Source: a virus. From it: 23,480 nucleotides of DNA. Numbering within the stretch: the first letter of the stretch is position 1; each line of letters starts with the position of its first letter. The notes under the pieces were generated by a model, which made no database searches, had not been told where the DNA came from, and saw nothing but the letters and a program-made list of their open reading frames with translations. Made by a program: the position numbers and the translations under genes. The DNA lies in IMG/VR virus record IMGVR_UViG_3300038701_001595, positions 1 through 23,480 of that record. One strand, written 5' to 3'. This document shows positions 1 through 23,406 of this stretch, in pieces.

Positions 1-518
1 GCAAACGGATCATCCCGCCTCACCCCCGCCTCCCTTGCCAACTCCATCATCTGCCGTACGCCTCCCAACATCGCATTCGCCACACTCGCCGGCCGCCCCA
101 CCCGATGCACCTCCAACCACCACCCCTCCGCATCCCCAACCGACAACCGAGCGACCAACGCATCCGCCGCGAACCCCTCCGTCAAATACCGCGAAATCCG
201 CTCATAATAAATCCGCGTATTCGTTTTCAGCTCCGGCCGCCTCATCTGCCGATCAAGCCACACCTGCACCAACCCGCCCCACGTCGCCCGATCCCCGGGC
301 CCGTCGCCTCTGCGCCCCGCGCGAAAACTCGCCACCTGCTCCGCCTCCGTCCGCACCCGATCCAGCTCATCCGCCAACTTTGCCCGCGCCACCTTTTTCG
401 ACGTCGTCCGCAGCGACTTCCGCACCTTCTTCCCGGCCACCTTCGCCTGCAAATAATACCGGCCCGACTTCCGATGCCGGATCAAATTCGTAATTCCCGT
501 CGGTGCAAAATCGCTCAT
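1..518 (-). CDS. int: Tyrosine-family phage integrase, N-terminal part (runs off left edge)
   Basis: Only the first 172 residues are inside the window; the frame is open to base 1, so the catalytic domain with its Arg/His/Tyr residues lies outside. Translation from ATG at 518 gives an N-terminal basic strand-rich segment (about residues 8-55, with SGRYYLQAKVAGKKVRKS) like the arm-DNA-binding domain of tyrosine integrases. A SAM-like core-binding domain follows at about 79-165, beginning TWGGLVQVWLDRQ and including ELKTNTRIYYERISRYL. The protein would recombine attP with a chromosomal attB. It starts 116 bases from a tRNA 3' fragment and next to repeated sites that it could bind, which supports the call. 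A TTGACA hexamer lies at 557-552 but the -10 partner is poor. Seen: the domain-like sequence. Inferred: catalytic activity, since no active-site residue is visible. Confidence 0.88.
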   Translation of the reverse strand, partial: MSDFAPTGITNLIRHRKSGRYYLQAKVAGKKVRKSLRTTSKKVARAKLADELDRVRTEAEQVASFRAGRRGDGPGDRATWGGLVQVWLDRQMRRPELKTNTRIYYERISRYLTEGFAADALVARLSVGDAEGWWLEVHRVGRPASVANAMLGGVRQMMELAREAGVRRDDPF

Positions 519-562
519 CCCGACCCCAAAACACCCCGAACGGGGCACCCTTGTCAAGGATA

Positions 563-586
563 GGTGGGCAACTGCGGTGGGCAACT
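563..586. repeat. Two tandem GGTGGGCAACT sites, candidate integrase arm-binding sites
   Basis: GGTGGGCAACT occurs at 563-573 and again at 576-586, a 13-base period. The same sequence occurs on the other side of the tRNA fragment at 794-804. Short direct repeats flanking the core are typical arm-type sites for integrases with an N-terminal arm-binding domain. The function is inferred from position. Confidence 0.6.
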
Positions 587-633
587 GCCCCGTCATGCAA
601 AACCCCAAATAGCCCTAACCCTCTGAAAATGAA

Positions 634-829: not shown

Positions 830-1480
830 TCAGTCGCGGGCCACGTAGGCAATGTGCATCATGTCCCGGCGACCGCTGCCACGCTTGAACCCCACCTGCA
901 AACCATGCTTGCGGAAGATCTCGACCGCGCTCCGGGGCATCTGGCGCGTGCCATTTGGCGCGGCTTTGCCAGGCTCCCACATCGTCCAGTTCCCATTCGC
1001 GGCGGGGTTGAGATCCAGCGCGATGCCCCAGGCGTGATCGCTGGTCGCGGTGCTGGATCGCGACGGCCGATTCACGTAGTCGCCCCCGAAGAGGTCGAGT
1101 CCGTATTTTCGGACGTAGTCCATGCCGTGCTTGGTTTTGATTTCGGTCAGGGCCTCGATCATCTTGTCGGCAATAAGCCGGTGCATCCGGATCGTTTTGC
1201 GCGTGCCACCTCCCCACGCGATCTTCATCGGCCAGGGGAGCTTGACGCGCTTGAGAGCGGCTTCTCGGCCCGGGTCGCCAAACACACGGACCTTGTCGCG
1301 ATGATTCGGTTTCGGGCGCGGGACATCGGAGGATTTCCCGGATTTCCCGAGTCGCGCGGTGGCGGATTTTTTCAGCGCCGCCCGGGTCTTGGGCCCGTCC
1401 AATCCATCGGCGGGCCCGGGATCGAATCCGAGGGTTTTTAGGCCGATTTGTTGGCAGTAGATCGCGTGATCGTAGCTCAT
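830..1480 (-). CDS. Endolysin: peptidoglycan-binding segment plus M15 (VanY-type) peptidase
   Basis: This 216-aa protein should cut peptide cross-links of the host wall at lysis. Residues 5-40 (YCQQIGLKTLGFDPGPADGL and following) resemble the first part of a PG_binding_1 repeat. Residues 85-212 form an M15 peptidase. The zinc ligands appear as His149 and Asp156 in SDHAWGIALDLNP and His209 in DMMHIAY, the family's SxHxxGxAxD and terminal H motifs. There is no signal peptide, so release would depend on a holin. ATG at 1480 overlaps the stop of the holin-like gene as ATGA, indicating translational coupling. It is the last late gene before the attachment region. Seen: zinc motif. Established: M15 enzymes are common phage endolysins. 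The exact bond cleaved is not known. Confidence 0.9.
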   Translation of the reverse strand: MSYDHAIYCQQIGLKTLGFDPGPADGLDGPKTRAALKKSATARLGKSGKSSDVPRPKPNHRDKVRVFGDPGREAALKRVKLPWPMKIAWGGGTRKTIRMHRLIADKMIEALTEIKTKHGMDYVRKYGLDLFGGDYVNRPSRSSTATSDHAWGIALDLNPAANGNWTMWEPGKAAPNGTRQMPRSAVEIFRKHGLQVGFKRGSGRRDMMHIAYVARD

Positions 1481-1803
1481 GATTTTTTACCGTTGTCCAG
1501 GAATGACCAGACCAGCGCGAAAAGCGGCGTCAGGAGACCCGCGAGCGACACGGCGCGCTCCTCATCGATCACGCCAAATGCCAGGAGCACTCCAGGGAGC
1601 AGGGAAAAACATTTGCGGAGCGCGCTTTGCAAAATGGCCATGCCCTCGTGGTGGCTCAGGGCCCAGGCCACCGCCGCGATGGCTACGATGATCCCGATGG
1701 CAGCGGTGTGCCGCTCATCGGCCATGCCAAAAATCAGTGCACCTCCGGCCGTCAAAATTTCCCGGAGGAGCCCGAGGGCCCGGTCTTTTTTCATGGCGGT
1801 CAT
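1477..1803 (-). CDS. Holin-like small membrane protein
   Basis: This 108-aa protein has about three hydrophobic segments (near residues 34-50, 66-80 and 86-102), with a weaker one at 15-27, and charged ends (MKKDR at the start, DNGKKS at the end). Size, topology and position directly before the endolysin, with a 4-base ATGA overlap, fit a holin or a phage_holin-type membrane protein. I chose ATG 1803 because an ATTGACA box lies 13 bases upstream, the spacing seen before many other genes here; an ATG at 1794 is also possible. No family signature is recognisable by eye, so the call rests on topology and context. Confidence 0.65.
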   Translation of the reverse strand: MTAMKKDRALGLLREILTAGGALIFGMADERHTAAIGIIVAIAAVAWALSHHEGMAILQSALRKCFSLLPGVLLAFGVIDEERAVSLAGLLTPLFALVWSFLDNGKKS

Positions 1804-1816
1804 GACTCCCAAGAGA

Positions 1817-1823
1817 TGTCAAT
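1817..1823 (-). promoter_or_regulatory. ATTGACA box before holin-like gene
   Basis: Six of seven bases match (ATTGACAT); 13 bases before ATG 1803. It lies in the 14-base stretch between the preceding stop and the holin-like start region. Confidence 0.4.
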
Positions 1824-1838
1824 CAACAACGCCCGCAT

Positions 1839-2318
1839 TTACAGTTGAGCCGCCGCGATAAATAGTTGATCCACCGTCGCCTCATCCATCCCCAGCGCCG
1901 TCGCCAGCTGCCCGATGAGGGGATGCGCCCGCTCGAAATCCCTGGCCTCCTCAAACTCGATCAGCCCCAGCTCGTTACCTGCCAGCATCCCCCGGATTGC
2001 CTCCCGGGTGATGGCCGGATCTTGCGAGGCCAGCACCAGCAAAAGCTGCCGCCGCGTCACCGATGCCGGTACCGTCCGCTGGCGAATCTCCGCCGCCGTC
2101 AGATCGATGCGCTTCCACCCGTAGCCATCGACCGTCGGCGCGGCCCGCTCAATCCGTTGCCGGTCGGGATCATAGGTCGGCGGCGGTAGGTCGGGAACGT
2201 AAGCATGACCCGGCGGCTCCGGCGGCGTCCGGCCATCGGGAATGTCGAGGGTGGCAGGGTAGCCGGAAAATGCCGGGGCGAGGTCGTTTTTGGTGGGGTT
2301 GTAGAGATAGTGTATCAT
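1839..2318 (-). CDS. Phage tail-fibre-associated protein (possible fibre assembly chaperone)
   Basis: A 159-aa protein starting MIHYLYNPTKNDLAPAFSGY. A Pro-rich middle (residues 28-48) is followed by PTYDPDRQRIERAAPTVDGY and GWKRIDLTAAEIRQ, a pattern common in small proteins coded just after phage tail fibres. The C-terminal half is helical and acidic. Its position two bases after the stop of the DNRLRE-like fibre gene and before the holin supports a role with the fibres, either as chaperone or as a small adhesin tip. No Shine-Dalgarno site is seen; expression may depend on reinitiation from the preceding gene. I do not recognise a firm family. Confidence 0.5.
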   Translation of the reverse strand: MIHYLYNPTKNDLAPAFSGYPATLDIPDGRTPPEPPGHAYVPDLPPPTYDPDRQRIERAAPTVDGYGWKRIDLTAAEIRQRTVPASVTRRQLLLVLASQDPAITREAIRGMLAGNELGLIEFEEARDFERAHPLIGQLATALGMDEATVDQLFIAAAQL

Positions 2319-2320
2319 TT

Positions 2321-2845
2321 TTATATGAGCTGAGGGGATTCGTTTGCTGAGGGTGCTGTCTCCTTGCTGTAAAATGACCGAGCCCCAGATTGGGATGTAT
2401 TAGAGGTGGGTTTCAACCGCAACGAACTGATACCATTTGAATTTTGCAGTCCGGCCAGCGAGAATTCTTTGACCGCTCCGACGGCATCACAAACTACTGT
2501 TAATCCGGTCGCGATTGTTACCCACGGTCGCGCGTTGACCGATTCATATGTGGCTGACGTTTCGTCTGTTGATTCCGGCAGCGTTTGGACATCAAACGTT
2601 GTCGTCACTGATGGCACCGCATCGGACGAGGATACAATCCTCAACTTACAAGCGGATTTTTTCACGTTATCAAAACTCAGCACAATTTCCCGTTGGAAAC
2701 CCACAACGGACTCATGTTTGAGAACCAACCCGCCCCCGTCATAATTTGTTGCGGAGTTAGCTCCGTCTCGAACGTATGTATCTCCTGTTAAAATTGGCGC
2801 AATCGCTCCCCCAAACCTCCTCCGATGTTTACCGATCAGGCTCAT
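2321..2845 (-). CDS. Virion adhesin-like protein with DNRLRE/CBM96-like fold
   Basis: A 174-aa protein with the pattern TGDTYVRDGANSATNYDGGG, then LVLKHE, a GFQREIVLSFD strand and SACKLRIV. This is the D-Y-R-G...NY...L-vK...R-x-x-L-F-D...A-x-L-R layout of DNRLRE/CBM96-type beta-sandwich domains, which bind polysaccharide or decorate surface proteins. It starts inside the stop of the repeat fibre (ATGA, 2845-2842) and so is probably made with it as a tip or accessory. The gene is poorer in GC than its neighbours (28 of 60 bases in 2461-2520, counted by eye), a sign of recent acquisition or module exchange. Binding to host surface glycan is inferred. Confidence 0.55.
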   Translation of the reverse strand: MSLIGKHRRRFGGAIAPILTGDTYVRDGANSATNYDGGGLVLKHESVVGFQREIVLSFDNVKKSACKLRIVSSSDAVPSVTTTFDVQTLPESTDETSATYESVNARPWVTIATGLTVVCDAVGAVKEFSLAGLQNSNGISSLRLKPTSNTSQSGARSFYSKETAPSANESPQLI

Positions 2846-4167
2846 GACGTCGGAAGAGCGTTCGCGCTAACAAGGAGCGTCGATCCAATCAGAGTCGCGT
2901 AGGCGATGCCCCACTCTCCCGCGCCCAGTCCGGCAATCGCCGTCGTCAATCCCACCTCCGACGTCGTCGCGTGAGCGAATGACAGCGTATGCCCACCTGG
3001 AGCCAGCGACCGCACAAAAACTTCAACCGTCTCTCCATCATCAAGATTCGATATCGTGATTGTCGTGTCATGCGCCAGGCCTACCAATTTCGCGGTTTTA
3101 CCCGCGCTCGCATCGTAGGAGATCGCCGCCGCACTCGTCAGCGGGACTGGACCCACATAATCCTTCACCGGCGTCGCACTCACCCCCAGGGCCGTCCTTG
3201 CTCCAGCTGCATCCGTCGCCCCGGTCCCACCATAAGCCAGCCCTACCGCCGTCCCCTGCCAGGTCCCCGTCGAAATCGTCCCCACGCTGGTCAGACTCGA
3301 TGAAACCACCGTCGCCGCCAGCGTCGTCCCCGTCAGCGTCCCCGCCGCCGCCGGGATCGTGATGTTGCCCGATCCGTCAAAACTCACCCCGTTGATCGTC
3401 ACCGCCGACTCCAGGGCCGTCGCCGTCGCCGCATTCCCCGTCGTCGATTGGTTGAGCGTCGGGAAAGTGCAATTTGATAGATCCCCACTCGCCGGAATCC
3501 CCAGCGCCGGAGTGATCAACGTCGGCGAATTCGCAAACACCAGCGCCCCCGTCCCTGTCTCATCCGAGATCACCCCCGCCAGCTCTGCGCTCGTCGTCGC
3601 CGCAAACTGGTCGAGTCCGTTACTCGTCAGCGCATCGCCGCCGCCACCGATGGCCTGCCACGTGCCGTCCCCCCGCAAAAACTTCGTCCCAATGCTCGTG
3701 CCGGTCCCGAGATAGCCAGGCGCGATCACATCTCCCTGCCAGGTGCCCGTCGAGATCGTTCCCACTGCGGTGAGGCTCGAAATAGTAATCCCAGCCGGGA
3801 GCGTGGTCCCGGCCAGATCTGCCGCACTGCCCGAGGTGGCGATGGTCGCCAAATCCCCACTATTCGCCTTGAGCCCCAGCGCCGTGCCCAGCGGAGTGTT
3901 CACAGCCGGGAGATCGACCGTTCCCGAGTCCGAGAGATCTCCGAAATCGACCACCAGCGACGGCTTGCCGGTCAGATCTGCGTAGCCCCCGCTGGTCGCC
4001 ACCGCTGCCAGCGACGCCGCGTCCGCCTTGAGCCCCAAGGCCGTCCCCAGCGGCGTATTGAGCGTCGGCAGGTCCGCCGTAGTGGCATCGCTCAGCGCAG
4101 TGTAGGAGGTGGCACCGGCTCCTGATCCGGAGGGTCCGCGATTGATGATGACAGTGGCGAGAGGCAT
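2842..4167 (-). CDS. Repeat-containing phage tail fibre
   Basis: This 441-aa protein is rich in Ala, Gly, Thr and Ser, as expected of a trimeric fibre shaft. Internal repeats are visible: DLPTLNTPLGTALGLKADA (about 32-50) and DLPAVNTPLGTALGLKANS; and VGTISTGTWQGDVI and VGTISTGTWQGTAV, the signature seen in many phage tail-fibre shafts. A fibre-like segment FLRGDGTWQAI follows the first TGTWQG block. The C-terminal part (from about 345) changes to beta-rich sequence with GGHTLSFAHA and may be the receptor-binding or trimerisation tip. ATG 4167 lies 10 bases after the adaptor gene's stop. It likely attaches to the tail end through the 109-aa and 437-aa proteins upstream. Confidence 0.8.
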   Translation of the reverse strand: MPLATVIINRGPSGSGAGATSYTALSDATTADLPTLNTPLGTALGLKADAASLAAVATSGGYADLTGKPSLVVDFGDLSDSGTVDLPAVNTPLGTALGLKANSGDLATIATSGSAADLAGTTLPAGITISSLTAVGTISTGTWQGDVIAPGYLGTGTSIGTKFLRGDGTWQAIGGGGDALTSNGLDQFAATTSAELAGVISDETGTGALVFANSPTLITPALGIPASGDLSNCTFPTLNQSTTGNAATATALESAVTINGVSFDGSGNITIPAAAGTLTGTTLAATVVSSSLTSVGTISTGTWQGTAVGLAYGGTGATDAAGARTALGVSATPVKDYVGPVPLTSAAAISYDASAGKTAKLVGLAHDTTITISNLDDGETVEVFVRSLAPGGHTLSFAHATTSEVGLTTAIAGLGAGEWGIAYATLIGSTLLVSANALPTS

Positions 4168-17127: not shown

Positions 17128-17691
17128 TTACTCGCTTTCGAGCTTGTTGATTTTCTGAGCGATCAGACCGGCCGCCAGCGGGTCGTCGGTGCGCTCCAGT
17201 TGCGCGTAGAGTTGTTCCAGCGTCTCGCCCGGCTCTTCGCCCTGACTCGACTCTTCGGGGAGATTGCGCTCCGGGATTCCCATCTGCGCAATCTCATCGG
17301 TCACGCCCTGGGCCACCGTAGTCGCCTCGGCTTCCAGCCGGGAAAGCTGCGCTTCGTATTCCGAAACGCGCGCTTCCGCCGTCTCTGCCCGCTGCACCGC
17401 CTGATCGCGCTCGTTCGTCAGAGCCTGCACTTGCGCTTCCAGCTGCGACGCCCGCGCCGTGAGATCATTCGCCCGAGCCTGCAGCCCGCCGCGAGTTTGC
17501 AAAATCGCCGCCACCCGCTCCGAAACCGTCGGGGCCCGTGGCGGATCGTCCTCGGCATCCCCCTGGGAAGCCTCCGGTTCATCGGGATCATCTCCCTCCG
17601 CAGCCCCACCGGCCACAGGTGCAGCAGGAGCCACAACGTGAAAAACATGGAAAATCGGAAAGAGCAAAAACAGAAAGGGCAGCAAGTGCAT
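17128..17691 (-). CDS. Coiled-coil scaffold-like head protein with hydrophobic N-terminus
   Basis: A 187-aa protein. Residues 1-24 are strongly hydrophobic (MHLLPFLFLLFPIFHVFHVV), 28-58 acidic and Pro-rich, and 60-150 a long coiled coil (RANDLTARASQLEAQVQALT, then SEYEAQLSRLEAEATTV). The end reads LAAGLIAQKINKLESE. Placement directly before the capsid gene and the coiled coil fit a scaffolding protein; the hydrophobic start is unusual for a scaffold and looks like a signal or membrane anchor. ATG 17691 is chosen over an upstream GTG at 17703 because a TTTGACA box lies 16 bases before it. It is preceded by RNA element A. The scaffold role is inferred. Confidence 0.55.
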   Translation of the reverse strand: MHLLPFLFLLFPIFHVFHVVAPAAPVAGGAAEGDDPDEPEASQGDAEDDPPRAPTVSERVAAILQTRGGLQARANDLTARASQLEAQVQALTNERDQAVQRAETAEARVSEYEAQLSRLEAEATTVAQGVTDEIAQMGIPERNLPEESSQGEEPGETLEQLYAQLERTDDPLAAGLIAQKINKLESE

Positions 17692-17707
17692 AACACCCGC
17701 CACGTTT

Positions 17708-17714
17708 TGTCAAA
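17708..17714 (-). promoter_or_regulatory. TTTGACA box before scaffold-like gene
   Basis: Exact TTTGACA, 16 bases before ATG 17691 and 6 bases after RNA element A. Confidence 0.5.
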
Positions 17715-17720
17715 AATCGC

Positions 17721-17772
17721 GAACAGGTCGATGCACTCGACCCGCTACGCGGGCGCGTGATCTTGGCTGTTC
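17721..17772 (-). ncRNA. Structured RNA element A (paired with element B at 20959-21009)
   Basis: On the minus strand GAACAG (17772-17767) pairs with CTGTTC (17726-17721). Inside lie CCAAGATC and TGCATCGAC, then CACGCG opposite CGAGTG, and a hairpin CCCGC-GTA-GCGGG. Element B has the same outer arms and internal segments but a different inner stem that also pairs. The TAG stop of the Cys-rich gene falls in the apical loop. A TTTGACA box begins 6 bases after the element and the scaffold-like gene follows. Confidence 0.65.
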
Positions 17773-18086
17773 TGCTCTAAATTCAGAAGCTGGCCGAAGA
17801 TCGGTTCCATAGCGTCAACGTGCCCTTGAAGGCGTTTTATTTCTTTACGCGACCGGAAGATCGCGCAGCTCATCGCTTCGGCATAGGCTTCCAGCTCTTG
17901 GGGCGTCGTGGGTGATTTCCACTCGGGGCGCTTCTCACATTGGCCAGCGGTCGCACATGATTTAATCGTGCTTGCGCAGCACCCAACGCAGTTCACCCAC
18001 AAGGCAGAACAAGGCGGTGATGCCAAGCCCTCTCCCGCTGGGAGTTCGACTTGGCGTTCTGGTGGTGATTCGGTTTTAGTTTTCAT
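17745..18086 (-). CDS. Small Cys-rich head-region protein, unknown function
   Basis: A 113-aa protein with a Cys cluster between residues 26 and 49 (PPCSALWVNCVGCCASTIKS, then CATAGQCEKR), seven Cys in about 24 residues, then a helical region EAYAEAMSCAIFRSRKEIKR and EPIFGQLLNLEQNSQDHAPA. The cluster suggests a metal-binding knuckle or disulfide-rich lobe. ATG 18086 overlaps the preceding stop as ATGA. The last nine codons and the stop are part of RNA element A, so the coding end is constrained by the RNA structure or vice versa. I do not recognise the family. It could be regulatory rather than structural. Confidence 0.6.
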   Translation of the reverse strand: MKTKTESPPERQVELPAGEGLASPPCSALWVNCVGCCASTIKSCATAGQCEKRPEWKSPTTPQELEAYAEAMSCAIFRSRKEIKRLQGHVDAMEPIFGQLLNLEQNSQDHAPA

Positions 18087-18307
18087 GATCTGTTTTCGTC
18101 GGAGGGCTGGCATACCTCGGCGTTCTCAATCAAAAACTCACACTCAAAAGCGATAATCGGCGGAGGCTCCATCATCCGCACCGTCTCCCCACGAGGCGCG
18201 ATCCGCCTCAAACATCTCTCGCATCCTTCCCGCCATCCCTCATCCGGATCATCACTTCCCACGCCGTCACACCGGGCCACATCGGCCGCCAAACTCCCCT
18301 CACTCAT
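18083..18307 (-). CDS. Small phage protein with CxxC motif, unknown function
   Basis: A 74-aa protein: GWREGCERCLRRIAPRGETV followed by PPPIIAFECEFLIENAEVC. The GCERCLRR...PPxIIxFECE pattern recurs, as I recall, in small unassigned prophage proteins and looks like a zinc-binding fold with Cys from CxxC and the later Cys. ATG 18307 uses the last base of the protease gene's stop (TGATG) and the gene ends in an ATGA overlap with the next. The tight coupling places it in the head operon, but such proteins are not known virion parts. Confidence 0.6.
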   Translation of the reverse strand: MSEGSLAADVARCDGVGSDDPDEGWREGCERCLRRIAPRGETVRMMEPPPIIAFECEFLIENAEVCQPSDENRS

Positions 18308-19134
18308 CACCCCACCAAATCAGCCACCAACATCGGCAACGTCTCCGCGAACCCATCGACCAGCGACCCCTCAACCTCCTTCGCCTGCCACGTCTGCCCC
18401 TGCATCTGCTCATCACTCAGAGCCCGCCGCGACCGAACGAAATTCTTGAACTGTCCGTCCACCACCGTCAACCGCTCCCGCAGGTGCGCCTCCTCCTCAT
18501 CGGTCCACCGCTTCCCGGGCATCCCAATCGCCTTCAGCGACCCACTCGCGAAAAGTTTCAACTCCAACCCCTCATCCTCCCACTGTTTGCTCGAATCAAC
18601 CCCCGCCATGATCGTCGAGATCGATCCCACCACCGCCGCCCGGTCCGCGTAGATCGTATCGCACGCCGCCGCCAGGTGATATCCCGCACTCGCACACAGA
18701 CTTTCCGAGTAAGCGATGACCGGCTTCCCCGCCTCGCTCACCTCCCGGATCGTCGCCGCCGTCTCTTCCAGTCCATAGGCCAGTCCGCCCGGCGTGTTGA
18801 AATTGATCACCACAATCTCCGCGTCATCATCATCGCGCACGTTCCGCAGCTGCTCTTGCAACAGAGCCGAATCCGCCATCCCGAGATACTGCATCAGTGG
18901 CGAAATGTTCCGCCCAATCGGTCCGCGCACCGGCACCACCGCCACCGGCCCGACCAACTCCACCTGCGGATAAAGCGGGCCCAGGAATTTGTGCACGTAG
19001 CCCACCTTATCATCCGCCCGTTGCTCGAAATCCTGCACCCGCTGGATGAGTTGAGCCAGAGCCTGCGGCATGATCGCCCACGGCTCGGAGTAGAGTTGAG
19101 TCGCGAAAGTCTGGTCAATCATCGGTTTCATCAT
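18307..19134 (-). CDS. Head maturation protease, S49 (SppA/ClpP-fold) family
   Basis: A 275-aa protein with the S49 layout: strand AVVPVRGPIG (about 65-74), FNTPGG (112-117), nucleophile Ser149 in SLCASAGYHLAAACD, and catalytic Lys201 in FASGSLKAIGMPGKRW. Like lambda gpC it should cleave head proteins and be removed during prohead maturation; lambda gpC also contains the scaffold in its C-terminus, but here the C-terminal part is short, consistent with a separate scaffold gene. It overlaps the portal stop. ATG 19134 is given; ATG 19122 (MIDQTFATQLY) is equally possible because neither has a clear ribosome site. Confidence 0.9.
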   Translation of the reverse strand: MMKPMIDQTFATQLYSEPWAIMPQALAQLIQRVQDFEQRADDKVGYVHKFLGPLYPQVELVGPVAVVPVRGPIGRNISPLMQYLGMADSALLQEQLRNVRDDDDAEIVVINFNTPGGLAYGLEETAATIREVSEAGKPVIAYSESLCASAGYHLAAACDTIYADRAAVVGSISTIMAGVDSSKQWEDEGLELKLFASGSLKAIGMPGKRWTDEEEAHLRERLTVVDGQFKNFVRSRRALSDEQMQGQTWQAKEVEGSLVDGFAETLPMLVADLVG

Positions 19135-20611
19135 CTTGAGTGTTTGTCGTAGTTTCCCCGCTCACCGCCGCCCCTTGCCGCGGCCGGAAGACCTCATCCG
19201 GATCCACTCCCTGGGCGCGGCATTCTTCGCGGATCGTCTTCCTCTCCAAAATCTTTTGCTTCACCTGCTCCTCCCAATCCTTCCCGCGCTGCGCGTAGAA
19301 ATCGGAGAGCGTCGTCATCCCCCCATCGTAAAGGTCCAGCTGATCTTTGTCCCGGCTCCGGTCGATGGTCATGCTCTTCTGCCCGATCCAAGCGACTTTC
19401 CACCACCGCTCATCCCGACACGGTCGCAGCCGCCCCGCCTTCATTTCTTTGGCCAGGTGGTAAATGTAATGCCGCGAGGCCCACGCCCGCAACGGCTTCT
19501 GCCGCGCCGCAATCCACCGGTCCAGCCGCTCCATGAGAAAACGCACGCCCGGACCATTCAGCCCCGACAGCTCCCAAATGATCTCCGGAGGGCACCCGGT
19601 CCCCAGCGCAATGTCCCGGATCAGGTCCCGGATCAGATCTCGGATATTTGGATGCGGCCGCGCATCGTGCAGGATTTTGAAATCCTTCCCCTTCGGCAGG
19701 TCCGGCACCCCACCGCCGCCGCCTCCTGCCCAGACCTCCGCCGAATTGAACGCATCCCCCTCGCTGTTCTTCTTCGCCACCATGTTGTGGCCAAGTCCGG
19801 GACGTTCCCGACTTCCCTTCTCGTCCGAGTTTGTCAGGTAAGCCCCGAAGAGCCCCGCCGTCTTGATCGCGTGTTTCGTATCGGCCCAGACTTCCGTTAT
19901 ATCAATCGCGTGGTTCACCGCATGGGCCAACGGCGGAACCGACCGATGGTGCCCGCAGCTCTGCCAGTCGCCAAAGTAGATCACGTCCCGCGCATCCAGC
20001 TGCCGCACCCGCCCGTCTTGCGACGAAAGCCCGTAGCGCACATGCCGACCCATGTTATTCGCCTGCACCCCGTCCAACCAGGTCGGCCCCGACTCCTTCG
20101 GATTCGCCAACCGATGCGCCTCGTAAAATGCCACCCGCGCACCGCCCGTCGGTGTCTCCGTCAGAGCCGTCAGCAACTCCCCGTCTCTCAGCCAGGACCG
20201 GGTTTGCAGCAGCTGCGCATCGTAAACATCGAATTTTCCCGACGCATCAAACACCAGCGGAGTCCCGGCCCGGGCATTGTAGTTCACCTCCGCCGCCGCG
20301 TTCCACTCCTCATCCCCCGTCCGCGCCTGCGGCATCAGATAGCCCACCAGATCCGAGAGACCATTCACGATCCCCTTCATGAATCCGACGTTCTTCGTCA
20401 GCCACCGCACCCGGCGGATCAGCTCCTGCCGCGAAAACGAATCCAACTCGATCCGCGTGTCCAGCGTGCTCCAATCGACATACCCCCTGCGCTCCGACCA
20501 ATTCGCCCCATCGTAGCTCGACCCGAAGGCGAACGATTGCGGCTCCACCGCCTCCGCCTGGGTCGCCGGTTTCGGAGCCGACGAGCGTTTGTTTTTCCTG
20601 CGCTTCGCCAT
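19115..20611 (-). CDS. Portal protein, lambda gpB-like family
   Basis: A 498-aa protein forming the DNA channel at one capsid vertex. Recognisable lambda-portal features: RVRWLTKNVGFMKGIVNGLS (about 64-83), LLQTRSWLRDGELLTALTET (about 133-152), FYEAHRLANPK, HHRSVPPLAHAVNHAIDITE, and IALGTGCPPEIIWELSGLNG followed by FLMERLDRWIAARQ. The N-terminus is basic (MAKRRKNKRSS) and the C-terminus acidic. Length is close to lambda gpB (533 aa). It starts 3 bases after the gpW-like stop and overlaps the protease start, as in lambda. A Gly run near the middle (AGGGGGGVPD) is a local oddity. Confidence 0.93.
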   Translation of the reverse strand: MAKRRKNKRSSAPKPATQAEAVEPQSFAFGSSYDGANWSERRGYVDWSTLDTRIELDSFSRQELIRRVRWLTKNVGFMKGIVNGLSDLVGYLMPQARTGDEEWNAAAEVNYNARAGTPLVFDASGKFDVYDAQLLQTRSWLRDGELLTALTETPTGGARVAFYEAHRLANPKESGPTWLDGVQANNMGRHVRYGLSSQDGRVRQLDARDVIYFGDWQSCGHHRSVPPLAHAVNHAIDITEVWADTKHAIKTAGLFGAYLTNSDEKGSRERPGLGHNMVAKKNSEGDAFNSAEVWAGGGGGGVPDLPKGKDFKILHDARPHPNIRDLIRDLIRDIALGTGCPPEIIWELSGLNGPGVRFLMERLDRWIAARQKPLRAWASRHYIYHLAKEMKAGRLRPCRDERWWKVAWIGQKSMTIDRSRDKDQLDLYDGGMTTLSDFYAQRGKDWEEQVKQKILERKTIREECRAQGVDPDEVFRPRQGAAVSGETTTNTQDDETDD

Positions 20612-20614
20612 CTC

Positions 20615-20923
20615 TTACGTGCCGACCCGGCGAAATGAAAAATCGTAAAAAGCCCCGCCGTTACTCGGCTTCGCCACCCCACCAGCCGCCGCCGCTTCCA
20701 GCTCTTGCAGAGCCACCTCGCACGCCGCCATGATCTCCTCCGGGTCCCCCGCGATTTGCCCGGCCGTCCCCCCACCTTCGAACGATCCCGAAGTGATCAC
20801 CACCTCCGTTTTCCGTTCTGACATTGCCGTCCCGGCTTTTTCATAAGCCGCCGTAATCGCCGCCTCAGTGGTCAAAAACCGTTTCACCCACGCCAGAATC
20901 GTGGAGTTCGCCCGAATGCTCAT
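20615..20923 (-). CDS. gpW-like head-tail joining protein
   Basis: A 102-aa protein between terminase and portal, the position of lambda W. The helical start STILAWVKRFLTTEAAITAA and later helix DPEEIMAACEVALQELEAAA are joined by GSFEGGGTAGQIAG; the end is GAFYDFSFRRVGT. It is longer than lambda gpW (68 aa), and sequence similarity is weak by eye, so the name rests on order. A TTTGACA box lies 14 bases before ATG 20923, and RNA element B fills most of the gap to the terminase gene. Confidence 0.6.
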   Translation of the reverse strand: MSIRANSTILAWVKRFLTTEAAITAAYEKAGTAMSERKTEVVITSGSFEGGGTAGQIAGDPEEIMAACEVALQELEAAAAGGVAKPSNGGAFYDFSFRRVGT

Positions 20924-20937
20924 CGGGGACAGCGCAA

Positions 20938-20944
20938 TGTCAAA
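20938..20944 (-). promoter_or_regulatory. TTTGACA box before gpW-like gene
   Basis: Exact TTTGACATT, 14 bases before ATG 20923 and 14 bases after RNA element B. Confidence 0.5.
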
Positions 20945-20958
20945 CCCCCCCGCGATCA

Positions 20959-21009
20959 GAACAGGTCGATGCAGGAGACCGCTACCGCGGCTCCCGATCT
21001 TTGCTGTTC
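20959..21009 (-). ncRNA. Structured RNA element B (paired with element A at 17721-17772)
   Basis: On the minus strand it begins one base after the terminase stop codon. AGAACAG pairs with CTGTTCT; CAAAGATC and TGCATCGAC are kept as in element A; GGAG pairs with CTCC, and the apical hairpin is CCGC-GGTA-GCGG. Compared with element A the inner stem has different bases on both sides but still pairs. A TTTGACA box and the gpW-like gene follow. Confidence 0.65.
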
Positions 21010-21010
21010 T

Positions 21011-22795
21011 TCACGCCGCCTCATCTTCATCTTTCCTCGCCGCCAACAACACCGGCGAAACAATCGACCACTGCGGCAAAAGATATTTCAGAGTATCCCA
21101 AAAATCATTCTCTCCCTTCTTCACCCATTCCCATTTCTCATGCCCGAAGCTGTTCTTTTTCTTCACCGGGATTTCCTGCGTCAGCTCTTTGAGAAACGCA
21201 TCATCCTCATCCACATCCGCCGGTAGATAGAGCGGCACAATCGACGCCTGCTTTTTCGATGAGTAGTGATTTTTCCGCAATCTGAAAAGCAAATCCCACT
21301 TGAACATCGGATCGTTCACGTGATAGGTCATCACCTCTTCCCCTTCGTGCCACGTCTCCGAAGTCGTGATCATCGTATCAATCTGCGTCCGGCCCCGGCC
21401 TTTCACCGGATAAAACCGATCCCCGTTCGCCAGGCAGAACTCCCGCACCGCCTTCGTATCATCCCCGTTCCCCTCATCGATCAGCCCGCACTGCACCGTC
21501 ATCTCCCGTCCGGCCACCACGAGCGGCACATCCGCAAACTCTAGGATCTCCTCAAAGTTCACGAGCGTGTCCCAATCGATCACGTAGATCTCGCCCGACG
21601 CCGCGAAGATCGCTTTCGTCGCCTTGTAGCAGTCCCTCTGCACATCCACCGCCATCGCATAAAAGAGCGGATCGATCCCCACCGGCGGCTCTCCCCTTTT
21701 GTAAGCCCCCTTCAAATCCAGCAGCTCACTCGTGGAAACTCCCCCTCCGGCCCGCTCGTAAGCCAGCCCCCGACGGCCGTTCATGAACCGTTCCATCTTC
21801 GCCGGATTCCCGTCCGCATTGATCCGCTCAATCGCCAACTGCCCGAACGTCACAAACCTCGAGTAAGCATCCCAAATGTGCACCGACCGCACTCCCGGCG
21901 GAGCCTTCGGATTCGTCGCCCGATATTGATACCGCAGAAGAGCCGCCGCCTTGTGCTTCTCTTCAAACCGACCGCCGCACAACTCGCACTTGAAATACGC
22001 ACCCTCCGCCACCTTCTCCAAATCCAGATCCCCCGCCAGGTCGCGAAACTCCTTCGTGTCGTAAACAAAGTTTTTCCACTCAAGCGGGGCCATCGCCTCG
22101 CAATGAGGACACGGCAAATCAATCACCTCCCGAGTCCCCTTCGCGTGCTCCACCGTGATCAGCCCCGAATCCCCCGGCGTCGAAAACCCGATGATTTTCG
22201 CATCCCGAGGTCGCTTCACCCGCTCACGCGCATGGTCGGACGTCGGGGCCCCCTCCACCAGCGGATGCTTATCCAGCTCATCCAAGATCGCCAACACCAG
22301 CGACTTGTTTGCCCAGGCCCCCGTCGAGTGCGCCCCCATCAGATAGACCGTGATCCCCGAGAGGAAATAGGTCAGATTCGAAAGCTCGTCATCCTCATCC
22401 CCCTCAACCTCCGAAAGAATCCGGTTCGAAGTAATCCACTTCTTCAGCCGCGTCTTCGACAACTTCCTCGCCTCATCCAGCGAATCAATGGCATAGGCCA
22501 CCTGCCCCGACCGGTGAACAATCATCCAACAAATCAAGATCAAGATCGCCATCGTGAACCCCACCTGGGAACTCTTCTTAATCCAAAACTCCCCCTTCCC
22601 CGGCCGCTTCGCCCACTCCAACACCTCCCGCACATACGGCGTCAGCTCGCTCGACCAATACCGATCCGCCCACTCCTCATTCTCCGTCCGCGGCACCTTC
22701 AACGTCCGCTCCGCCCACTCCCACGGCTCCTCTTCCGGCTCCGGCTGATACACCCCGGCCAGCACCCCCGCCACCCATTCCGTCACCGCCGTCAC
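21011..22795 (-). CDS. Terminase large subunit, lambda GpA family
   Basis: A 594-aa packaging motor and nuclease. The ATPase half has the GpA-type Walker A variant IKKSSQVGFT (72-81), which lacks the usual GKT as in lambda gpA, Walker B LVLAILDELD (166-175), and GFSTPGDSGL after it. Two CxxC pairs (CPHC and CELC) lie in between the halves. The nuclease half begins MAVDVQRDCYKATKAIFAAS, where GpA proteins have the first acidic site. GTG 22795 overlaps the small-subunit stop as GTGA and gives a product close to lambda gpA (641 aa). The frame is open farther upstream but there it runs opposite the small-subunit gene and is not used. Confidence 0.92.
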   Translation of the reverse strand: MTAVTEWVAGVLAGVYQPEPEEEPWEWAERTLKVPRTENEEWADRYWSSELTPYVREVLEWAKRPGKGEFWIKKSSQVGFTMAILILICWMIVHRSGQVAYAIDSLDEARKLSKTRLKKWITSNRILSEVEGDEDDELSNLTYFLSGITVYLMGAHSTGAWANKSLVLAILDELDKHPLVEGAPTSDHARERVKRPRDAKIIGFSTPGDSGLITVEHAKGTREVIDLPCPHCEAMAPLEWKNFVYDTKEFRDLAGDLDLEKVAEGAYFKCELCGGRFEEKHKAAALLRYQYRATNPKAPPGVRSVHIWDAYSRFVTFGQLAIERINADGNPAKMERFMNGRRGLAYERAGGGVSTSELLDLKGAYKRGEPPVGIDPLFYAMAVDVQRDCYKATKAIFAASGEIYVIDWDTLVNFEEILEFADVPLVVAGREMTVQCGLIDEGNGDDTKAVREFCLANGDRFYPVKGRGRTQIDTMITTSETWHEGEEVMTYHVNDPMFKWDLLFRLRKNHYSSKKQASIVPLYLPADVDEDDAFLKELTQEIPVKKKNSFGHEKWEWVKKGENDFWDTLKYLLPQWSIVSPVLLAARKDEDEAA

Positions 22796-23406
22796 GAAAA
22801 CACCTCCTGATTCAGCAACTCGAAAACCTCCCGAACCTGACTTTCCGACAACATCGATTTCAGCACCGAAACAATCTGCCCGTGAAAAGTCTTCAACTCC
22901 GCAGCCACCTCTTGCTTCGGCACCAGCTTCCCTTGCGCCTGCAGCTCTTCCCGCACCTTCGTCGAAACCGACGTCATCCGTGAAATTGTATCCAGCCACG
23001 GCTTCGCCTGCCCTGGATCCGTCGCGCGCTTCGCCAGCTCCACCTCCACCTGCTCCAACCGCTCCAACGCACCTCCCAGACCCGTCTGCTGATTCGTCAG
23101 ATTTACCACCGGCGCGGGCCGAGGCTCCACCTCTTTCGGTTCCCGGGCCACATCCACCGCCGCCTGCACAATTCCCGGCGGACACCGCAGCGACATACAC
23201 CGTGACCACCAAGCCCGCATTTCCCCCGGCTGATCCAGCGGCAACGGATCATCCCGATCCCGCCCGATCTTAACCCACCGCTTGATCGTCCGGGGCGACG
23301 CCCCATACCGCTCCGCGTAAACCGCGTAGCTCTCATCGTAACCGGTGACCGCCGCCCGCCCGCTCCGCGCGCGCCCAGCCCCCGCCTCCAACAGCTCCTC
23401 GCCCAT
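22792..23406 (-). CDS. Terminase small subunit-like DNA-binding protein
   Basis: A 204-aa protein directly before the large terminase. Residues 25-48 (SYAVYAERYGASPRTIKRWV) form a helix-turn-helix of the kind that recognises packaging sites in Nu1-type subunits. The middle (RLEQVEVELAKRATDPGQAK) and end (QIVSVLKSMLSESQVREVFE) are helical and would mediate oligomers and contact with the large subunit. ATG 23406 is chosen over an in-frame ATG at 23445 because a TTTGACA box lies 14 bases before it. It ends in a GTGA overlap with the terminase. Sequence is not closely lambda-like; the role follows from HTH and position. Confidence 0.8.
   Translation of the reverse strand: MGEELLEAGAGRARSGRAAVTGYDESYAVYAERYGASPRTIKRWVKIGRDRDDPLPLDQPGEMRAWWSRCMSLRCPPGIVQAAVDVAREPKEVEPRPAPVVNLTNQQTGLGGALERLEQVEVELAKRATDPGQAKPWLDTISRMTSVSTKVREELQAQGKLVPKQEVAAELKTFHGQIVSVLKSMLSESQVREVFELLNQEVFS

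Follow-up and report, generated by a model that had tools for sequence, protein, structure and literature searches.

The window analyzed here, a 23,480-base virus record from IMG/VR, carries a block of phage head genes on its minus strand, with hairpins at their junctions. An earlier note, made from the sequence alone, had reported two copies of a structured element there, at 17721-17772 and 20959-21009 (minus strand), with shared outer arms and internal segments and variable upper stems, each at the end of a gene. Both hairpins are present as it described. The first, in a site that we call c1, contains the stop codon of a Cys-rich gene, and the second, in site c2, follows the stop of the large terminase gene; both fold more stably than shuffled sequences, whether as RNA (z of -3.7 and -4.9) or as DNA (z of -3.3 and -3.7). 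A third site of the same kind, H, had been overlooked. We conclude that the hairpins are very probably attC-type sites of integron gene cassettes, carried by a phage without an integron integrase as a cluster of attC sites lacking integron integrases (CALIN).

What revealed their nature was a phage contig that carries several copies in tandem: the outer boxes, GCCCAAC and GTTGGGC, are the R'' and R' boxes of an integron attC. The phage coding strand, as in AAC-GCCAGA-GAT..[T]CCGGTG[C]ATC-GACTT-GTT, aligns with the bottom strand of canonical attC sites, such as those of class 1 and those checked directly in TJE1 and M16-3. In a typical phage site, an unpaired spacer of 6/5 nucleotides (nt) leads to an L stem that bears two extrahelical bases at a distance of 7 nt, and the tip varies. 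By the definition that we used, an attC site has two or three extrahelical bases on one arm, 6-8 nt apart (PMC2727003). The phage sites, which are 45 to about 180 nt long, have a T and a C on one arm only at such a distance, AAC and GTT boxes at both ends of the folded strand, and an unpaired central spacer (5-7 nt/4-6 nt) with a variable terminal structure. The R-box consensus GTTRRRY/RYYYAAC is found in G010/L336 (GTTGGGC, GTTAGAT). A CALIN comprises at least two neighboring attC sites without an integron integrase; the window has three sites, and G001, G003, G004, G006, and G010 have several each. The coordinates and sequences of the window sites are given in the table. The CACGCG/CGAGTG stem of c1 contains one G.A mismatch. 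An alternative hairpin, GGTCGA/TCGACC, is possible within the 3' half of c1 (17724-17746, minus strand) and is absent from c2. The G010 contig L336 contains a tandem array of near-identical attC sites at 1040-3350; open reading frames (ORFs) read through it as ..PNARDHRAPEGRSGASTCW.., and the C-terminal tails of the proteins there are therefore encoded by the sites.

Table. Sites, predicted cassette, and genes in the window (aa, amino acids).
Feature	Position	Strand	Details
Phage integrase, N-terminal part	3-608	-	phrog_1, 7e-11; cut by contig end
Probable scaffold gene, downstream of c1	17128..17703	-	phrog_3760 head scaffolding, E 0.0025, weak
attC-like site c1, type A	17718..17775	-	62.4 bits; 5' box GCAGAAC, spacer AGCCAA; stem GAT-CACGCG-CCC / GGG[T]CGAGTG[C]ATC; spacer GACCT, 3' box GTTCGCG
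Cys-rich cassette gene, 113 aa (122 aa with start at 18113)	17745..18086	-	starts inside tip of H; ends inside c1 as ..NSQDHAPA*
Predicted 353-nt cassette	17770..18122	-	H from C of its AAC, plus Cys-rich gene, up to AA of c1
attC-like site H, type B, long tip	18004..18128	-	found by prediction; 5' box TGAGAAC, spacer GCCGA; stem GGT-ATGCCA-GCC / GGC[T]TGGCAT[C]ACC; spacer GCCTT, 3' box GTTCTGC
75-aa ORF, function unknown	18083..18310	-	ends inside site H (..IENAEVCQPSDENRS*)
S49-type head protease, between c2 and H	18307..19134	-	PF01343 1.3e-20
Portal protein, between c2 and H	19115..20611	-	PF05136 2.2e-28
102-aa gene	20615..20923	-	
attC-like site c2, type A, short tip	20956..21012	-	62.5 bits; begins 1 nt past terminase stop; 5' box GAAGAAC, spacer AGCAAA; stem GAT-CGGGAG-CCG / CGG[T]CTCCTG[C]ATC; spacer GACCT, 3' box GTTCTGA
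Large terminase, GpA type	21011..23212	-	PF05876 3.3e-28, PF20454 4.8e-25; stop just upstream of c2

A site finder that required only AAC, a stem, two extra bases on the 3' arm, and GTT, with no base identity at the extra positions, recovered 32 sites at a score of at least 11, compared with 1.0 per equal length of dinucleotide-shuffled sequence. The extrahelical bases emerged as T and C even though the finder did not specify them. A mirror-image finder picks up these sites again from the opposite strand and cannot serve as a control; for that purpose, we turned to gene direction and bacterial sites.

An excised integron cassette is a circle, so the boxes at its two ends must be complementary to each other, while the two boxes of one site need not be. 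In eight phage records, counted without the repeats of G010, 15 of 18 neighboring site pairs were complementary at 7/7 positions across the intervening gene, and all were complementary at 6/7 or more. When box partners were permuted, the mean was 1.38 perfect pairs and the maximum 7 (20,000 trials). The boxes of a single site matched at 4.8/7 positions on average, which rules out own-site matching as the rule. In the window, the 5' box of c1, GCAGAAC, predicted a GTTCTGC box upstream of the Cys-rich gene, which we then located at 18010-18004 as the 3' box of H; the boxes from H to c1 are complementary at 7/7 positions.

Related phages differ by the precise gain of such a unit. A gene common to G003 and G006 is >90% identical as far as GGAGAA|C, after which G003 continues into one site and G006 into another site and its genes, returning to the G003 sequence 466 nt later at GACGAA|C. 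Leaving out this 466-nt cassette, which G006 has and G003 lacks, gives a gap-free alignment of the flanks (263/284 identical). Both ends of the cassette lie in an R box, at AA|CG. The 5' box, where the exchange took place, belongs to the arm that lacks extrahelical bases, which is what one would expect of a coding strand acting as the attC bottom strand (PMC2727003). The cassette unit is thus a site plus its downstream gene, which also accounts for the position of many gene starts: about half of the phage cassette genes, including the window's Cys-rich gene, begin within the tip of the left-hand site. On the basis of the AA|C cut point seen in related phages and the window sequence, we placed the ends of a predicted 353-nt cassette in the window, which, once circular, would restore a perfect GCAGAAC/GTTCTGC box pair. 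The genes between sites differ among L100, L348, and L131/L178 at one locus, with boxes that match at 7/7, 7/7, 6/7, and 7/7 positions. Phage cassette cargo includes a C5 methylase, a Mom-like DNA-modification protein, and an N6/N4 methylase. In L414 (4896-5657), one cassette is filled by a C5-methylase ORF of 242 aa that overlaps an ORF of 252 aa in a different frame; the C5-methylase ORF, the one of the two that was searched, had a family match.

These exchanges could have been due to ordinary phage recombination, with the repeated boundary sequences serving as homology and no site-specific enzyme taking part. Boundary homology has been proposed for the gene junctions of lambdoid phages, and here too the genes between sites are swapped among related phages and the copies within G010 are near-identical. 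However, the sites of one phage vary in sequence yet keep their structure and both extra bases, and homology would yield neither a cassette-specific complementary 7-nt box pair nor AA|C breakpoints between unlike sites. We consider this explanation highly improbable.

Alternatively, the hairpins might be cis-acting RNA elements at phage operon junctions, serving as processing sites, translational couplers, or protein-binding hairpins. We gathered relatives by pattern scans of viral contigs and with a structural descriptor; an extra viral scan for a GAAC/GCTTC form added one clear new member, G023. The first scan of genome contigs found no members, the second found no clear member by the descriptor among the matches listed, and similar DNA in named phages or plasmids amounted to chance matches only. 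Wherever flanking genes were read, the relatives lie at gene junctions in the sense direction, and in several of them the stop codons of unrelated upstream genes fall within the element, all in one frame, as ..NSQD(R/H)*. Among 14 relatives, 92% of the cells are paired, 10 of 18 pairs are altered on both sides, and 37 cells have two-sided changes compared with 12.2 +/- 2.8 for shuffles and no more than 10 for slid controls, figures that are biased upwards because several relatives were chosen by a descriptor demanding inner pairing. The changed-but-paired inner stems pointed out in the earlier note are thus borne out, as is the lack of a named RNA family, since no Rfam match exceeded the gathering score; low-scoring Rfam matches (Transposase-2 at 9.9 bits, istR) are due to chance.

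This covariation, the sense orientation, the stop and start codons within the element, and a next start that in many cases lies 12-35 nt downstream would all fit an RNA element. Such an element does not, however, predict complementary boxes across the intervening gene, a clean 466-nt cassette insertion, or attC matches in genomes bearing intI (described below). G-U intermediates are rare (5 one-sided compared with 37 two-sided changes), and Rfam offers no match. Because the boxes are complementary across a gene and related phages differ by a precise AA|C cassette, the hairpins are best explained as a folded single-stranded DNA recombination site, and we regard the RNA element as very unlikely. 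Of the proposal that they are a functional RNA or a protein-bound hairpin, what survives is a structurally constrained hairpin, found at gene junctions of other phages and probably bound by protein; the RNA role does not, nor do the suggested regulatory RNA, processing site, and packaging or assembly signal. An additional effect of the hairpin on translation, besides its role in recombination, is possible. We also considered a REP/RAYT-like or other hairpin transposon family recognized by a Y1 transposase, whose members are likewise small imperfect hairpins with conserved bulges at gene ends. The units here are bounded by complementary boxes flanking a gene and are not single hairpins, their orientation follows the genes, and they resemble attC sites of intI-bearing genomes, all of which makes a transposon family exceedingly unlikely.

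Bacterial genomes gave independent support for the attC reading. A covariance model trained solely on phage sites, R1, matched 3 of 274 gammaproteobacterial genomes and 4 of 396 genomes from the phylum of G016. Five of these seven genomes carry an integron integrase above the curated cutoff, a sixth (G781) has a broken integron integrase copy (223 bits), and the seventh (G177) gave a generic partial match only (75 bits). In G189, the site lies 3 kb from intI. Phylum-level samples for G019 and G017 were nearly identical and add little. While the phage sites have their extrahelical bases on the 3' arm of the coding strand, the bacterial sites that we checked have the opposite arrangement: in all flanks read, the genes run in the canonical direction. 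It is thus the phage cassettes that are inverted, and the model is not the cause. Two of the bacterial attC matches (L457 and L460) lie beside genes that by eye resemble BrnT-like toxin genes, a typical cargo of chromosomal integrons.

Several observations weigh against identifying the hairpins as attC sites of a CALIN. In attC sites, the extrahelical bases are expected on the R''-L'' arm (the gene-proximal 5' arm of the coding strand), and those of the phage sites are not there; this mismatch concerns the direction of the gene and not the site itself. The window boxes (GTTCTGA, GTTCTGC, and GTTCGCG) begin with GTTC and fall outside strict GTTRRRY, although nonconsensus boxes (GTTCGAT, GTTCGGC) also occur in intI-bearing bacterial genomes. 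As a bare fold, H is only weakly better than shuffles (z of -1.5). No match to TIGR02249 or PF00589 was found in 12 phage records, several of which are fragments, and intI with attI beside the array, as in a complete integron, was not found in the phage records; the integrase fragment at the left end of the window is a phage integrase (phrog_1) and not an integron integrase. The precise insertion is known from related phages and not from the window's own lineage. Finally, the boxes from c2 to H match at 6/7 positions across 2.8 kb (portal, protease). Since 24% of unrelated pairs also reach 6/7, we do not claim the 2.9-kb portal block as a cassette. Site c2 may mark an earlier insertion beside the terminase gene; it is absent from a relative with a 55% identical terminase.

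Integron sites in phages are already known; what may be new here is their inverted orientation. Integrons and CALINs, including methylase cassettes, have been described in 21 phages, and 5 of 6 tested phage sites recombine with IntI1 (Qi et al. 2023, PMC9892861). Our sites belong to the same kind, given their anatomy and their agreement with the cassette rule, and form a variant in orientation. The phages of that study, among them Tetrasphaera phage TJE1 and Shewanella prophage M16-3, likewise contain attC clusters, many without integrase, and methylase cassettes. In contrast to the present phages, finder matches among the cassettes of TJE1 and M16-3 lie on the strand opposite to the genes, as is canonical; the present phages also differ in being uncultivated and, in the window, in having sites among head genes. 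Sites of bacterial chromosomal integrons share the AAC/GTT boxes, the unpaired central spacer, the two extrahelical bases 6-8 nt apart, the variable tip, and box complementarity across the cassette, but in bacteria the genes lie antisense to the strand whose 3' arm bears the extrahelical bases, whereas in these phages that strand is the coding one. The same bases choose the recombining strand of attC sites, including the Vibrio cholerae repeat, and C is tolerated as the first of them, at a loss of only 2.7-fold (Bouvier et al. 2009, PMC2727003). That study inverted the bases by engineering; here, the whole site is naturally inverted relative to the gene. We found no description of inverted phage cassettes in the open-access literature, a search outside of which lay most subscription papers and all preprints.

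We infer the enzyme, a single-stranded step, and present-day activity in the window phage as follows. If the coding strand became single-stranded, each site would fold into a hairpin. An integron integrase, presumably supplied by the host or another element, would bind the AAC/GTT boxes, the L stem, and the extrahelical T and C of the 3' arm. Cleavage by this enzyme at AA|C of the 5' box, followed by recombination with an attI or a second attC, would insert or delete the site and its downstream gene as one unit. In the window, the clearest such unit would be H with the Cys-rich gene, ending at c1. Beyond this, we see about an even chance that phages hold their own circulating pool of cassettes, built in reverse to bacterial ones, in which attC is a 5' leader, the start codon often lies in the tip, and the coding strand recombines; during infection, this pool, which would include cassettes with DNA-modification genes, would be reshuffled by integrases of the host or by a phage recombinase of an unknown kind. 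If so, cassettes inserted in phage operons would always face the right way for expression. The sites extend integron cassettes to uncultivated phages, in the window within a structural-gene operon, and do so with an inverted design that is consistent: the site comes first and its cassette gene second. They offer a possible route by which phages could gain or drop small genes, including DNA-modification genes, via host integron machinery. They also call for caution, as covarying hairpins at phage gene ends can pass for new RNA families.

Among the window genes, the Cys-rich protein had no Pfam or PHROG match, and no family match in either database supported the label of gpW-like that had been given to the 102-aa gene. 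The truncated integrase ORF suggests a temperate phage. Searching with the portal protein yielded no relative of use for the window. Among named phages, Akkermansia phage Moulinsart has the terminase closest to that of the window (26% identity), so a Verrucomicrobiota host is possible. In L035 (3234-4025, minus strand), a 263-aa ORF in the late operon ends inside an attC-like site (..TNQDH*) and by eye resembles a family 2 glycosyltransferase. A TTTGACA-like box lies between a gene end and the next start around 20939-20946 and 17708-17716 (minus strand) in the window and at 9794-9801 in the relative L004. We rejected it as a part of the element: L004 has TTTTGACA directly after the terminase stop without a hairpin, and the box therefore belongs to the phage; it may be a -35-like or other phage signal.

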